Assembly: GCA_036476315.1 (NCBI GenBank)
Contig: JAZGBI010000011.1
Coordinates: forward strand, 1-57,987
Origin: Candidatus Neomarinimicrobiota bacterium
Lineage (GTDB): Bacteria > Fidelibacterota > Marinisomatia > Marinisomatales > S15-B10
Direction: 5' to 3'
Length of the DNA stretch: 57,987 nucleotides
Shown here: in pieces, positions 41,307 through 56,639 of the stretch
How the letters are laid out: each line of letters starts with the position of its first letter
How positions within the stretch are numbered: the stretch's first letter is position 1
Notes under the pieces: generated by a model
Seen by the model: the letters and a program-made list of their open reading frames with translations, nothing else
Told to the model about the DNA's origin: nothing
Database searches by the model: none
Position numbers and translations under genes: made by a program

Positions 41307-42335
41307 CTATATGAGGACGTCTCTATACTTTTTGATGTCGTTGAGAACAGTCCCGGTACCGATGACTACATCTTGCAAAGGATTTTCGGAAACGTTGGCC
41401 GGAAGATTGGTCCGCTCACGAATATTCTGATCGATGCCTCTTAAGCGAGATCCTCCGCCAGTGAGAATGATTCCCCGTTCCAGGATGTCGACGGAAAGTT
41501 CCGGCGGGGTCTGTTCCAGAGCCCGTTTTACCACATCAACAATCTGAGTGACGCAGTCCTTCAGTGACTGACGAATTTCGTCGGATGAGACCTCGGCCGT
41601 TTTCGGAATACCCGACACGAGATCTCGACCCTTGACCGTGATCATGGTCTCTTTCATTCGCATGGCGGATCCAACTGATATCTTGATTTTTTCGGCTGAG
41701 GGTTCACCGATCTCGAGCTTATGCTCATTCCGGAACCATTGGATGATCGCCTCATCCATTTGTGCTCCTGCCACCCGGACCGTCTCCTTCGTCACAACAC
41801 CATTAAGAGCAATCACCGCGATCTCCGTGGTTCCCCCTCCGATATCCACGATCATGTTGCCCACCGGCTTACTGATGTCGAGTCCAATCCCGATGGCTGC
41901 TGCCACGGGCTCCTCTATGAGGAAAATCTCGCGGGCGTTGGCCCGTTCACCTGAATCTTTAACCGCCCGCCTTTCCACCTCCGTGATGCCGCTGGGAACA
42001 CATATGACCATCCGGGGCCGGGCGATACGGCTGAAACGAATCTTCTTCACGAATCCCTGGAGCATGGCGTCCGTCATGTGAAAGTCTGCGATGACACCAT
42101 CCTTGAGAGGACGGATAGTCTGAATGTCCCGGTGAGTTTTACCAACCATCTCTTTGGCTTCGTTGCCCACGGCAAGAATCGACCCGTCGTTTATGCTGCT
42201 TGCCACGATCGAAGGTTCGCTCAATACGACCCCCTTCCCCTTGATCCAGACGAGCGTATTGGCGGTGCCCAGGTCGATGGCAAGATCCCCGGATACCCAA
42301 CCCCCAACGTTTAGCGCATCTCTGAAAAAGGCCAT
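41307..42335 (-). CDS. mreB: Rod shape-determining actin homologue MreB
   Basis: Actin-like ATPase that guides sidewall synthesis. 342 residues. Nucleotide-site motifs: IDLGTANTLVWIKGKG (phosphate 1), MIVDIGGGTTEIAVIAL (phosphate 2), and IILTGGGSRLRGID (adenosine). The short N-terminus MAFFRDALNVG may bind membrane. First gene of the five-gene rod operon, with a promoter at 42402-42430. Confidence 0.98.
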   Translation of the reverse strand: MAFFRDALNVGGWVSGDLAIDLGTANTLVWIKGKGVVLSEPSIVASSINDGSILAVGNEAKEMVGKTHRDIQTIRPLKDGVIADFHMTDAMLQGFVKKIRFSRIARPRMVICVPSGITEVERRAVKDSGERANAREIFLIEEPVAAAIGIGLDISKPVGNMIVDIGGGTTEIAVIALNGVVTKETVRVAGAQMDEAIIQWFRNEHKLEIGEPSAEKIKISVGSAMRMKETMITVKGRDLVSGIPKTAEVSSDEIRQSLKDCVTQIVDVVKRALEQTPPELSVDILERGIILTGGGSRLRGIDQNIRERTNLPANVSENPLQDVVIGTGTVLNDIKKYRDVLI

Positions 42336-42430: not shown

Positions 42431-42513
42431 TTCAAATTCAATTGATCCAGAGTTTCCCAGACAGGGAAAAATGGAAAGGAATTCAAATTTAAACTATATT
42501 CATATACTATTCA

Positions 42514-42667
42514 GGCTAAGGCGAAGGCTGAGGAATTAACAAGATAAGAGGCTGAGGCGAAGGCGAAGGAAATGAAGGGAGAAAACAAAGACTCTTCTCG
42601 TTGAATTTGTAATGAATAGGATTCTCAATTCTTGGCCTTCGCCTCAGCCTCGGCCTTATTCTTAGCC
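42514..42667. repeat. Long imperfect hairpin with 17-bp perfect arms
   Basis: Inner arms GAGGCTGAGGCGAAGGC (42548-42564) and its exact reverse complement (42635-42651) are 70 nt apart. An outer pair, GGCTAAG (42514-42520) and CTTAGCC (42661-42667), is nested around them. Each arm is made of degenerate 6-7 nt units. Could be a small non-autonomous element or a hairpin in the leader of the ArsC-like mRNA. Confidence 0.7.
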
Positions 42668-42714
42668 TAAGCCAAAGCCTGTGTCTTCCAAAGCAAGAAA
42701 GGAGAGAAAACGAA

Positions 42715-43065
42715 ATGAATGAGATTACCGTCTACTTCAACCCGAGGTGACGTAAGAGTAGAGAATCCGTGCAGATTCTCAAAGATCAAGGCGTTGACCC
42801 TCAATTGATTCATTACCTCAAGACTCCTCCTGACCTGGATACTCTGAAGGATATCTCCCGGAAATTGGGACTTGAACCCAAGCATTTCATCCGGAGAAAT
42901 GAAGCAGTTTTCAAGGAGCTCCGACTGAAGGAAAGATTGGATGATAGTGAGGCGTTGCTGCAGGCAATGGCGTCCCATCCCAGATTGATAGAACGTCCCA
43001 TCGCCGTCAAAGGCGAAAGAGCCGTTCTCGGTAGACCACCAGAACGCGTGCTGGAACTGCTGTAA
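42715..43065 (+). CDS. ArsC-family reductase, candidate selenoprotein (Sec12 encoded by in-frame TGA)
   Basis: Reading from the ATG at 42715 gives 116 residues with one internal TGA (42748-42750) at codon 12, exactly the catalytic cysteine position of glutaredoxin-coupled ArsC. The context is ITVYFNPR-TGA-RKSRESV where the family has NPRCSKSRE. The three substrate/catalytic arginines of E. coli plasmid ArsC (Arg60, Arg94, Arg107) are present at the same numbers: FIRRNE, IERPIAV and LGRPPE. Length is normal for chromosomal ArsC. A hairpin with bacterial SECIS geometry follows the TGA (42761-42780). Ribosome site AGGAGAG is 8 nt upstream. Taken together it should be read as selenocysteine, not stop. 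Function: reduction of arsenate or another oxyanion/thiol partner (ArsC/Spx family); substrate uncertain. Starting at the GTG (42769) would delete the active site. A TauE/SafE permease follows 25 nt later. Alternative: a pseudogene with one nonsense change. Confidence 0.87.
42761..42780 (+). promoter_or_regulatory. Putative bacterial SECIS element
   Basis: GAGAATC (42761-42767) pairs perfectly with GATTCTC (42774-42780) around the 6-nt loop CGTGCA. The loop begins 17 nt after the TGA and has G as its second base followed by T. Known bSECIS elements (E. coli fdhF type) have an apical loop about 16-37 nt after UGA with a G in the first two loop positions, so this fits. Confidence 0.75.
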
Positions 43066-43090: not shown

Positions 43091-43861
43091 TTGGATATTG
43101 TAATCGTCACCCTGGTTTCCCTGATCGCCTCCGGTCTAACCCTTTTCTCAGGTTTTGGACTGGGTTCCATCTTGATGCCCGTCATGCTGCTGTTTTTCCC
43201 CGTGGAAGTTGCAGTCGCCGCTACCGCCCTCGTCCATCTCGCAAATAACTTCTTTAAGTTTGCCCTTTTCGGGAGATTTCGGCGCAACGACGTCCTCATC
43301 AAATTCGCCGTGCCGGCAGTGGTTTTTGCTGCCGTGGGAGCCTGGCTGCTCACCGTGATGTCACAGTTCAAACCAGCCTTTTCATATAATTTGCTCGCGA
43401 GAAATCAAGACGTGGAGGTAATCAAGATCATCGTCGCCGCATTAATCACCTTTTTCGCTCTTTTGGAAGTAGTGCCCCGGCTGAGAAATCTGGAGTTCAA
43501 TCCCAAACTCCTCCCTGTGGGCGGCATGGTCAGCGGTCTGCTGGGGGGACTTTCTGGACACCAGGGTGCAATGCGGAGCGCCTTTCTCGCCAAAACCGGA
43601 CTGACAAAAGAACAGTTCATCGGCACCGGTGTAACCATCGCGTGCCTGGTAGACCTGACGCGACTTGCGGTATACGGCGTGCACATAACTCAGATCGGTC
43701 TCAGAAACGTACCCCTTATAATTGCGGCATGCTGCGCCGCCTTCCTCGGAGTGATGGCCGGAAAAAGCCTGGTGGAAAAAGTGACAATGGCCCATATTCA
43801 AAAACTGGTGGCTTTTGGACTCATCATACTCTCCCTGGCGCTGGGAAGTGGCATCATCTAA
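43091..43861 (+). CDS. TauE/SafE (DUF81) family permease
   Basis: 256 residues, about eight membrane segments, in two related halves. Typical features: GLTLFSGFGLGSILMPVMLL and TALVHLANNFFKFALFG in the first half, GLLGGLSGHQGAMRSAFLAKTG in the second. The family exports or imports sulfite, sulfonates and other organic or inorganic anions. Start is TTG at 43091, preceded by GGAGAGTGGAG; a nearby ATG (43074) is out of frame. It begins 25 nt after the ArsC-like selenoprotein candidate, so both are probably one transcript and may handle the same anion (inference). Confidence 0.9.
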   Translation: MDIVIVTLVSLIASGLTLFSGFGLGSILMPVMLLFFPVEVAVAATALVHLANNFFKFALFGRFRRNDVLIKFAVPAVVFAAVGAWLLTVMSQFKPAFSYNLLARNQDVEVIKIIVAALITFFALLEVVPRLRNLEFNPKLLPVGGMVSGLLGGLSGHQGAMRSAFLAKTGLTKEQFIGTGVTIACLVDLTRLAVYGVHITQIGLRNVPLIIAACCAAFLGVMAGKSLVEKVTMAHIQKLVAFGLIILSLALGSGII

Positions 43862-48893: not shown

Positions 48894-49457
48894 TTATTCG
48901 ATAAAGTCATTCTGTCTAATATAATGAATTATGGAATCAACCTCGTCCCTCAACGCCAACTTGCTGGTGTTCACGGTTATTTCGGGGTTCTCAGGTTCTT
49001 CATAAGGGTCGTCAATCCCGGTGAAGTGTTTGATCTCACCACGACGAGCTTTCGAATAGAGTCCTTTCACATCACGGGCTTCGCAAACTTCCAGAGGACA
49101 TTTCACAAATACTTCGACAAATCTGCCGATTCCCCCTCGAGCGTATCGGCGCTCCTGCTCATAGGGAGAAATAAAGGCACAGAGAACAATAATGCCGTGT
49201 TGAACCAGCAAATTGGCGACAAACGTGACCCTCTCGATATTCTTGTCCCTGTCCTCCTTGGTAAAAGTCAGGTCAGGGGTCAGCTTCTGCCGGACGACAT
49301 CTCCATCCAGTCTCTGGACACGGTAACCCATTGTCTCCAGTTTTTCTTTCAGGGCTATGGAAATCGTGGTCTTTCCCGCCCCGGACAGGCCCGTCAACCA
49401 TACGGCAACTCCCGGAACGGTGTTATCCCCCGGACGGAGAGTTTTCTTACTCTTCAT
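48894..49457 (-). CDS. cysC: Adenylylsulfate (APS) kinase
   Basis: Phosphorylates APS to PAPS. 187 residues. P-loop GLSGAGKTTIS at 23-33, RLDGDVVRQKLTPDL (the DGD motif that binds APS), and the VFVKCPLEVCEARDVKGLY region followed by FTGIDDPYEEP. Full length. Its first 11 nt overlap the end of sat, so PAPS synthesis is one translational unit. No PAPS reductase (cysH) or sulfite reductase follows, so PAPS is likely meant for sulfonation. Confidence 0.96.
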   Translation of the reverse strand: MKSKKTLRPGDNTVPGVAVWLTGLSGAGKTTISIALKEKLETMGYRVQRLDGDVVRQKLTPDLTFTKEDRDKNIERVTFVANLLVQHGIIVLCAFISPYEQERRYARGGIGRFVEVFVKCPLEVCEARDVKGLYSKARRGEIKHFTGIDDPYEEPENPEITVNTSKLALRDEVDSIIHYIRQNDFIE

Positions 49458-50586
49458 GTTGATAATACCTCTTCAAAACCTCCTCCACCTCAGGTCTCGT
49501 GAATTCGACGGGCAGTCTTCCCCCGGATTCCAGTATCTCCCGTATTTTCGTTCCGCTTAAGAATATCTTTTCGTGGTCCAGGGCTCTCGATGTCTTCGTC
49601 GTGGCCATGGAATTCGTTCGCCGACAGTAGAAGGCATGCTCAAAGAACATGGGCTCAATGCCAATCTCTTCCCTGGAAAACGTGTCAAAGATTTTCTGGG
49701 CATCATAGGTTCCGTAAAAATCTTTATATCCCGCATGATCTCTTCCGACAATGAAGTGGGTGCAGCCATAGTTCTTTCTTGCAATCGCGTGGAGTATCGC
49801 TTCCCGGGGGCCTGCATAGCGCATGAAGGCCGGGTAGACAGACAGGAGTGTATGCCTGTGGGGAAAGTAGCTGTCCAGAATGGCCCTGTAACATTCCATC
49901 CTGATTTCGGCAGGGATGTCATCCTCACTTGTCTGTCCAACGATGGGATGAATCAATAGGCCGTCCACCATTTCCAGGGCACATTTCGTTATATATTCGT
50001 GAGCCCTGTGAATGGGATTTCTGGTCTGGAAGCCCACCACCGATTTCCAACCCCTCTTCCTGTACTGTTCCCTCAACTGTGCGGGACTGAGCCGGTAGTC
50101 ACCGAATCGACCATGATGTGGTAGCACGTATGCTTCAACGTCTCCGGAAATATAGTAGTCACCCTGAGAGAAAAGTGCGGCTACGCCGGGATGAGACATG
50201 TCGCTGGTGAGGTAGACCTCCTTTGCCTCCTTCTCCTTATCGTAGTGAAAAACCTCCGAAACCGAAATCCTACCCAGGGCCGTGCCGTCAGGACCCCTCA
50301 AGAATATCGCATCTTCACCTTTCAGATCATCGTATTGATCTTTTGTGATGGGCAAAGTGACGGGAAGGGACCATACCTGTCCAGTGAGCAGCCTGAGATC
50401 TGCAAGTGTCGACAAATAGTCCGCTTTCGACATAAACCCTTTCAGAGGACTGAATGCACCTGTTGCCAGCATTTCGAAATCGGCAAGATTTCTTCTGTTC
50501 AGAATTAGTGAAGGGTTCAGGGAGTCCTCATCTTCCGGCAGCTCCTTCATGAGATCCAGTAGAACGCCTCCATGTGGCTCGATCAT
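49447..50586 (-). CDS. sat: ATP sulfurylase (sulfate adenylyltransferase, homo-oligomeric type)
   Basis: Makes APS from ATP and sulfate. From the ATG at 50586 the protein is 379 residues; GGAAAGGA precedes that start, whereas the longer frame to 50640 adds a poor N-terminus. Motifs: VGFQTRNPIHRAHEYI (the QxRNPxHRAH site), the FIVGRDHAGYKDFYG segment, and MFFEHAFYCRRTNSMATTK with the two metal-like Cys/His residues. This is the Sat/dissimilatory-like form, not CysDN. Paired with cysC. Confidence 0.95.
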   Translation of the reverse strand: MIEPHGGVLLDLMKELPEDEDSLNPSLILNRRNLADFEMLATGAFSPLKGFMSKADYLSTLADLRLLTGQVWSLPVTLPITKDQYDDLKGEDAIFLRGPDGTALGRISVSEVFHYDKEKEAKEVYLTSDMSHPGVAALFSQGDYYISGDVEAYVLPHHGRFGDYRLSPAQLREQYRKRGWKSVVGFQTRNPIHRAHEYITKCALEMVDGLLIHPIVGQTSEDDIPAEIRMECYRAILDSYFPHRHTLLSVYPAFMRYAGPREAILHAIARKNYGCTHFIVGRDHAGYKDFYGTYDAQKIFDTFSREEIGIEPMFFEHAFYCRRTNSMATTKTSRALDHEKIFLSGTKIREILESGGRLPVEFTRPEVEEVLKRYYQHEE

Positions 50587-50696
50587 GACAGTCCTTTCCT
50601 CAACGGTGTGAAAGACTTTGCACAAGAAGTCAGGCGGCAAAATTACAAAACCTGCAAGTTACCTCAATGATTTATGTCCGGTGAAGACCCCTTCAT

Positions 50697-54715: not shown

Positions 54716-55723
54716 ATGAGAGAGAATTCAACACCTCCAATCTTGGTAGTTGGTGTTCCACGCAGCGGAACGACCTGGACGGCTCGAGTCCTCAGTGAGG
54801 CCCACCAGACCTCTCTTCTCCACGAACCGGACAACGAGAAGATAAACGTACTCGCATTTCGATGGAAGCACGGATATCACCGGATGCCCTACATAAGAGA
54901 GGCGGAAATGGAGCCGGTGTATGCAGGTTTCTGGAGACACATTCTCGACTATGATTTTCTTCCGAGTGCAACGGTGTTGAACAAGTCCTTGCTAAGGGGA
55001 TTCAATCTGAATTCCACCCGGCTTGAGAATTATGTAAGGGACAAGTGCAGGCAGGCCAATAACAGTCAGCCTCACGCTTTTCAAACATCTCCCTACGACC
55101 AGATCACTCGCGTCCTTAGCAAAGCATCCTTCTTTTATTACAAATCAAGGAGTAGACGGCGGATTGTCAAGTCCGTGCACACGGGACTTGCGCTCCCCTT
55201 CTTGTATCAACATTTTAGACCTCAAGTTCTTCTGGTGTTCCGCCACCCTGCAAACGTGGTATCCAGCTGTCTTCAACTGGGACTGTACGACGCCAACAGG
55301 GAGATTTTCAGGCAGACTGCTCTGGCGGAGGATTTTCTGGAGCCTTACATGGAGAAAATTGAAAGACTCAAGGATCCGGTTGCGTTAATGAGTCTGCAGG
55401 TATCCATCTTTTACTACATTTGGGAACAGCAACTGAAAGAGAATCCCAAATGGTTGTCTGTGACGCATGAATCGCTTTGCAATGAACCTGAAGGCTCGTT
55501 TCGCACATTGTATGAGGAACTTGGCTTGGAGTGGAGAAGAGAGGTGGGTGAATTCCTTCTGACCCACGATACGGATGGAATCGGTTACGAAATAAGGCGG
55601 AAAGCGGCCGGTCAAATCGACAAATGGAGGCAGAAACTGACACCCGACCAAGTGGAATCCGTTCAGAAGGGATACGGCATCCTCCCGGTGAGGCATTACC
55701 ATGAATTCTCCACCAACCGCTGA
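54716..55723 (+). CDS. PAPS-dependent sulfotransferase
   Basis: 335 residues, cytosolic. PAPS 5'-phosphosulfate loop VVGVPRSGTTWTARVL with Arg16-Ser17-Gly18-Thr19-Thr20, and the 3'-phosphate site LVFRHPANVVSSCLQ near residue 175. Family: Sulfotransfer domain, carbohydrate type. With sat-cysC upstream on the other strand it suggests sulfation of a surface glycan or small molecule (inference). ATG chosen because it gives the P-loop at its usual depth. No overlap with neighbours. Confidence 0.92.
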   Translation: MRENSTPPILVVGVPRSGTTWTARVLSEAHQTSLLHEPDNEKINVLAFRWKHGYHRMPYIREAEMEPVYAGFWRHILDYDFLPSATVLNKSLLRGFNLNSTRLENYVRDKCRQANNSQPHAFQTSPYDQITRVLSKASFFYYKSRSRRRIVKSVHTGLALPFLYQHFRPQVLLVFRHPANVVSSCLQLGLYDANREIFRQTALAEDFLEPYMEKIERLKDPVALMSLQVSIFYYIWEQQLKENPKWLSVTHESLCNEPEGSFRTLYEELGLEWRREVGEFLLTHDTDGIGYEIRRKAAGQIDKWRQKLTPDQVESVQKGYGILPVRHYHEFSTNR

Positions 55724-55775
55724 CCGAATCAAGGAAAGTGGCTGACATCGGATAGAGCTACCATCATACACGATT

Positions 55776-56639
55776 ATGTCCGAAAAAGACCGAATCACAA
55801 AACGCATTTTCATCGTTGGGGCCGCCAGATCTGGCACTACCCTTGTGCAGAGTCTTTTTGCCTCCCACCCTGATCTCTGTTCATTTCCTGAAACCCACTT
55901 TTTCAGAGCGACAGTGCCCAAGATATCGTGGATGCGTCCGCTTAAGAAATACGGTTCAGGAGAAAGAAGGATCATGGGTGAATTATTGAACAGGGCTGGA
56001 GACGGAAGTTTATTGCATCTGCTTCCTCAATCAACCTGGTCCACTGAAAGGTGGTCAGCTGCCATCATACGGATTCTGGACGAGCATTGCCTCAAGCGGG
56101 ATTATTCAGCGTGGGTGGAAAAAACTCCCATGCATCTCTACTACATCCACCTCATTAGTTCGGTCAGTCCCGACAGCCGTTTCATTCACGTCATTCGCAA
56201 TGGCCAGGATGTGGTCGCGTCTCTCTACGAGGCGAGTCACAAGCATCCAGAGTACTTTGGAGGAGCCCGATCTGTGAACCGATGCATCAGACGATGGAAG
56301 CATGACGTGTCAATATCCAGGAGGTTCGTTGACTCTGATAATCACGTCCATGTCATGTACGAAAACATCGTGGTAGATCCGGAGAGGGAACTCAAACATA
56401 TTTGTGATGCGATCGGGATCGCCTTTAGCAAGAAAATGCTGAGTTACGAGACAGAGGCGGCCACACTTCGATTACCAGAGGAAACCTGGAAAGTCAGGAA
56501 TAGTGAACCTATTCGTAAAACTCGAAAGTTCGAAACGCTATTCTCGCAGGAGAGGCAGGATTACATCCTGAGGAAGATGAGAAACATAGACCTGAAAGCC
56601 TTCCAGTTACAGAATAGCACTCCCCAAAAGCGTGAGTAA
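55776..56639 (+). CDS. Second PAPS-dependent sulfotransferase
   Basis: 287 residues. 5'-phosphosulfate loop FIVGAARSGTTLVQSLFASH at about 12-31, then the SFPETHFF segment, and the 3'-phosphate site RFIHVIRNGQDVVASLYEA near 135. A different subfamily from the first, closer to the Stf0/heparan-type Sulfotransfer_3 group. 52 nt downstream of the first, so one unit. Its end overlaps the convergent glycosyltransferase by 33 nt. Confidence 0.9.
   Translation: MSEKDRITKRIFIVGAARSGTTLVQSLFASHPDLCSFPETHFFRATVPKISWMRPLKKYGSGERRIMGELLNRAGDGSLLHLLPQSTWSTERWSAAIIRILDEHCLKRDYSAWVEKTPMHLYYIHLISSVSPDSRFIHVIRNGQDVVASLYEASHKHPEYFGGARSVNRCIRRWKHDVSISRRFVDSDNHVHVMYENIVVDPERELKHICDAIGIAFSKKMLSYETEAATLRLPEETWKVRNSEPIRKTRKFETLFSQERQDYILRKMRNIDLKAFQLQNSTPQKRE

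Follow-up and report, generated by a model that had tools for sequence, protein, structure and literature searches.

The arsC gene at positions 42715..43065 (+ strand) of the window, as we call the whole 57,987-nucleotide stretch of contig JAZGBI010000011.1 that was analysed, very probably encodes a selenocysteine-containing arsenate reductase of the ArsC type, the glutaredoxin-linked family. That the gene is decoded with selenocysteine (Sec) at its in-frame TGA we hold to be nearly certain; that the substrate of the enzyme is arsenate we regard as probable. The observation from which the original prediction started, a TGA exactly at the active-site codon, is correct, and its interpretation of the gene as a selenoprotein is supported, all of the proposed checks that sequence analysis could answer having turned out in its favour.

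Codon 12 of the arsC gene and its conservation in the order

Preceded by a Shine-Dalgarno-like AGGAG (42700..42704, + strand; read directly, 10 nt 5' of the start codon), the frame runs from ATG at 42715 to a terminal TAA at 43063-43065 (351 bp, 117 codons), without any frameshift and with a single in-frame stop, the TGA of codon 12 (42748..42750, + strand). Read through, it yields a product of 116 residues, MNEITVYFNPRURKSRES...VLELL, whose active-site motif is U12-R13-K14-S15, that is, UxxS, and which scores above the cut-offs of both TIGR00014 (the NCBIfam arsC model; 126.5 bits against 106.05) and Pfam ArsC (58.9 bits against 24). Its alignment to the ArsC of E. coli plasmid R773 (PDB 1i9d, 1jzw) is free of gaps over residues 1-116 and places the TGA opposite the catalytic Cys12, with Arg at 60, 94 and 107 in identical numbering. 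The original prediction had described every other family mark as intact, which holds for the three arginines and fails for residue 8, a change that it missed: the window protein has Phe there (TTC, 42736-42738), in place of the His found in the other aligned homologues, whether these carry Sec or Cys. As had been foreseen for standard annotation, the usual gene caller truncates the protein, starting at GTG 42769 and predicting a 98-aa fragment from which the active site is lost.

Across 130 genomes of the order, 59 ArsC hits were obtained; one of them, a fragment lacking codon 12, was set aside, which leaves 58. Read directly, codon 12 is TGA in 49 of these orthologues and TGC or TGT in the remaining nine, so that the alternation between Cys and TGA which the original prediction proposed to look for among homologues does occur. 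Since the same codon is TGA in 49 of the 58, its presence at codon 12 of the window gene is not a matter of chance. None of the TGA-type genes has a second stop in frame, although contig ends truncate a few of them. Downstream of the TGA, every close pair for which the ratio is defined has a dN/dS below 1 (about 0.08 to 0.21 in seven of the eight close pairs and 0.53 in the eighth, which is the pair with the lowest dS); close ArsC pairs are thus under purifying selection. In the ArsC tree, one Cys clade (families f2 and f6) branches, with strong support, from within a group that includes 13 Sec genes, an arrangement indicating that Sec and Cys have been exchanged within the family. For all 49 Sec genes, the active site is expected to be missed by standard annotation.

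The active-site loop itself varies in several of the Sec copies (L020 (G004), L029, L034, L059, L065, L077 and L082), where USKI takes the place of UxxS or where the loop reads NTRU, NPLU, NPWU, NSRU or NNRU. Nearly all of the Cys copies listed keep HNPRC.

The recoding signal and the selenocysteine machinery

A short distance past the UGA lies a hairpin, GAGAATC-CGUGCA-GAUUCUC (42761..42780, + strand), with a stem of 7 bp and a 6-nt apical loop, CGUGCA, which starts 17 nt past the UGA and has G at its second position. The published bacterial SECIS (bSECIS) model (PMC13188914) comprises a stem of 4-16 bp, a loop of 3-9 nt with G in its first two positions, a distance of 16-37 nt between UGA and loop, and a minimum free energy of at most -7.5 kcal/mol. 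The window hairpin falls within the stem, loop, G-position and spacing limits; taken in isolation it folds at -6.9 kcal/mol, just short of the energy threshold, and the 48-nt stretch that begins at the UGA folds at -11.4 kcal/mol (z = -2.5). All loci were scored by the published bSECIS geometry, with synonymous recodings that preserve the peptide as the reference. The window gene gave p = 0.004, and p fell below 0.05 in 41 of 47 Sec genes as against one of the 17 Cys genes (Mann-Whitney p = 2e-8). Compensatory changes are seen in 27 orthologues, and the hairpin is absent from Cys homologues.

Within this one order and this one gene, the SECIS occurs in two mutually exclusive registers. The loop of register A (29 Sec genes, the window gene included) is 17 nt from the UGA and always reads CGUGNN, and that of register B (19 Sec genes, families f7 and f8) is 30 nt from it and always reads CGUGA; the hairpin of the remaining Sec gene, L081, is of another kind. 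Pairing is complete (100%) at the five core pairs of register A, with 14 compensatory cells, and reaches 99% at seven pairs of register B, where 18 such cells were counted. In both, the covariation score was reached by none of 500 shuffles, and slid structures scored lower. On the ArsC tree, about three changes are needed for each register. Because the two positions differ by 13 nt, which is no multiple of three, the shift does not amount to a gain or loss of whole codons, and the SECIS appears to have re-formed at another place in the coding sequence. We consider it fairly likely that the signal has been re-created in this manner at a new place with SelB still reading the same CGUG loop, and that, in addition, Sec may have freed the window copy from the need for His8. 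Among open-access full texts, to which our search of the literature was confined, we found no description of a two-register SECIS within one order. The two registers would amount to a natural experiment in which to ask how much displacement of the hairpin SelB tolerates and by what steps a recoding signal shifts within a coding sequence.

The original prediction reasoned that the organism must decode UGA as Sec, and tRNA-Sec, selA, selB and selD are all found in the same genome assembly, which has 2.60 Mb in 112 contigs and is 95.8% complete. The tRNA-Sec reaches 62.2 bits, where the gathering score is 47, and is called by ARAGORN as tRNA-SeC with anticodon UCA; selA scores 524 bits and selD 397 bits. 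The selB gene lies in two pieces at contig edges, one on C30 directly behind selA (model positions 1-131) and the other at the start of C94 (163-579), positions 132-162 being unseen between them. In the 61 genomes of the order searched, selA is over the cut-off in 48 and tRNA-Sec in 42. In family f15, whose genomes are small (about 0.9 Mb), both are absent at the cut-off, and ArsC of this kind is absent too. With these components, a ribosome arriving at the UGA of codon 12 would accept the Sec-tRNA-Sec brought by SelB, guided by the adjacent downstream hairpin; the genes and the hairpin are observed, and incorporation is what they would lead one to expect. The selD gene (L016 (G000:C73:62572-63498)) is itself a Sec gene, with its own in-frame TGA in the motif SGUACK; its hairpin is a different one, with a GGUCC loop placed about as far from the TGA as in register B.

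With only one genome to go by, a pseudogene or a sequencing or assembly error at this codon would present the same picture, a TGA within an ArsC gene that is ordinary in other respects, and the unusual Phe8 of the window protein could be taken in the same sense. Against this stand the same TGA in 49 genomes of the order, the purifying selection downstream of it and the specific, conserved hairpin that follows it. The other damage to be expected of a pseudogene, to which the original prediction had drawn attention, is likewise missing: there are no additional stops or frameshifts in the gene, and its close relatives are also undamaged. Since both the TGA and the reading frame are conserved across genomes, this explanation is for practical purposes ruled out, and we attach only a very slight probability to it. 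Even smaller is the probability that TGA has been reassigned throughout the genome to a sense codon (Trp or Gly, for example) and that codon 12 is therefore not Sec. The ArsC frame would indeed be open under such a code, but in this DNA TGA works as an ordinary stop, terminating 20 of the 48 ORFs that exceed 450 bp in the window, and reassignment would leave aside the Sec-decoding gene set, the coincidence of the TGA with the catalytic Cys position and the SECIS hairpin. In sum, all three alternatives, a pseudogene, a sequencing error and a reassigned code, are either excluded or very unlikely.

Arsenic genes, genomic surroundings and probable function

The chemistry of the family, with a nucleophile at position 12 and oxyanion-binding arginines, predicts arsenate reduction with recycling by thiol and glutaredoxin. 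By analogy with what is known of the family, the Sec12 selenolate would attack arsenate in the pocket of R60, R94 and R107, and would then be regenerated by a low-molecular-weight thiol together with glutaredoxin-type partners, releasing arsenite. The same genome encodes an ArsM arsenite methyltransferase (L087 (G000:C98:94548-95345); 323 bits against a cut-off of 263), and reading of contig C98 places ahead of arsM a regulator of the ArsR type that has a CC motif. Efflux of arsenite by Acr3 or ArsB was also considered, and neither pump was detected in the genome, which at about 96% completeness could have lost one to gaps. Because the arsR-arsM pair is present and Acr3 and ArsB are undetected, methylation is the likeliest fate of arsenite. 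The methyltransferase linked to arsR would carry out this last step, and the passage from arsenate to arsenite and on to methylarsenicals makes a coherent route, in which arsenite would most likely be methylated. The arsM frame has no TGA inside.

The replacement of His8 bears on how the first step of this route would proceed. Sec is more acidic than Cys, and Sec12 may for this reason stay ionised without His8. PMC5593903, which cites Gladysheva 1996, names His8 among the requirements for arsenic resistance, on the ground that it lowers the pKa of Cys12. Phe8 would weaken the claim of classical catalysis while leaving the assignment to fold and family standing, and a Sec enzyme may not need His8 at all.

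The window arsC lies outside any ars operon. Upstream and divergent from it is mreB (41307..42335, - strand; Pfam MreB_Mbl), which keeps its place beside arsC in families f1 and f5 and is not part of the system, and directly downstream is a gene for a TauE/SafE-family membrane protein (43091..43861, + strand; Pfam TauE, 75 bits), which neighbour clustering found to be common to seven loci of f1 and f5, the window included. The order mreB - arsC - tauE is kept in these two families, and neighbours differ between families, so that context says little about function; we accordingly dropped it as a functional guide. Elsewhere in the order, a nitroreductase-family gene (BluB-like, below cut-off) is found upstream of arsC at L021, L036 and other loci, in several genomes of f6, f7 and f8. 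The gap between mreB and arsC contains, at window positions 42513-42686, purine-rich imperfect repeats of the AGGCTGAGGCGAAGGC type as well as an inverted repeat of 21 nt (42548-42568 / 42631-42651, 95% complementary); the exact core has no other occurrence in the genome. The window also carries, at 48894-50640 (- strand) and 54716-56639 (+ strand), APS kinase and ATP sulfurylase, which have two sulfotransferases close by.

The main rival to arsenate reduction is a different role in thiol redox chemistry: the gene would encode a genuine ArsC-fold selenoprotein, with some other thiol or selenol reaction as its job, as is possible for YfgD-type ArsC homologues generally. We see this as the less probable function, though one of appreciable weight. 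The closest solved homologues, 3rdw (the nearest by sequence) and 3f0i, are themselves only putative arsenate reductases, and the literature searched held nothing useful on the function of YfgD. The undetected arsenite pump, the lack of an ars operon around a gene whose neighbours vary by family, and Phe8 all fit such a role. It has also been reported that some ArsC-like genes play no part in arsenic resistance, and that two ArsC-like genes of Pantoea conferred no arsenate resistance (PMC5360009). Both of these, however, lacked R60 or R107, whereas the window protein keeps R60, R94 and R107 and passes the TIGR00014 cut-off, and its genome has the arsR-arsM pair. Arsenate remains, in our judgement, the better candidate for the substrate of the window enzyme.

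Relation to known selenocysteine-containing ArsC proteins

The original prediction stated that ArsC-like proteins with Sec had turned up in surveys of marine metagenomes, and rightly so. Arsenate reductases that carry Sec in a UxxS motif were reported from the Sargasso Sea in 2005 (14 sequences; PMC1088965) and from the GOS data in 2008 (77 sequences; PMC2398784), and the family is for this reason not novel. In two reviews it is entered as COG1393/UxxS (2022; PMC9312934) and as TIGR00014/UxxS (2026; PMC13188914). What the present genomes add is that Sec at the ArsC active site is used by members of a whole bacterial order, beyond isolated metagenome reads, and that a single genome ties Sec-ArsC to an otherwise complete Sec machinery and to an arsR-arsM pair.

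Set against the classical enzyme of plasmid R773, the window protein is alike in its ungapped alignment over 116 residues and in its retained arginines, and differs in having Sec12 for Cys12 and Phe8 for His8, in lacking the C-terminal tail past residue 116 and in being encoded outside an arsRBC operon. The UxxC selenoproteins known as arsenate reductase 2 or arsenate reductase-like (cd03032, NF041106) likewise place Sec in an ArsC-like thioredoxin fold, but with a UxxC motif, in contrast to the UxxS motif and TIGR00014 assignment of the window gene. With the UxxS Sec-arsenate reductases ('ArsC 1'; COG1393/pfam03960/TIGR00014; for example MBT3519430.1), the window gene shares the fold family, Sec for the catalytic Cys, the UxxS motif, a predicted bSECIS directly 3' of the UGA and the existence of Cys homologues. 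Nothing sets it apart from that family, the window copy having Phe8, and it is a well-supported further member of the UxxS Sec-ArsC family known since 2005.
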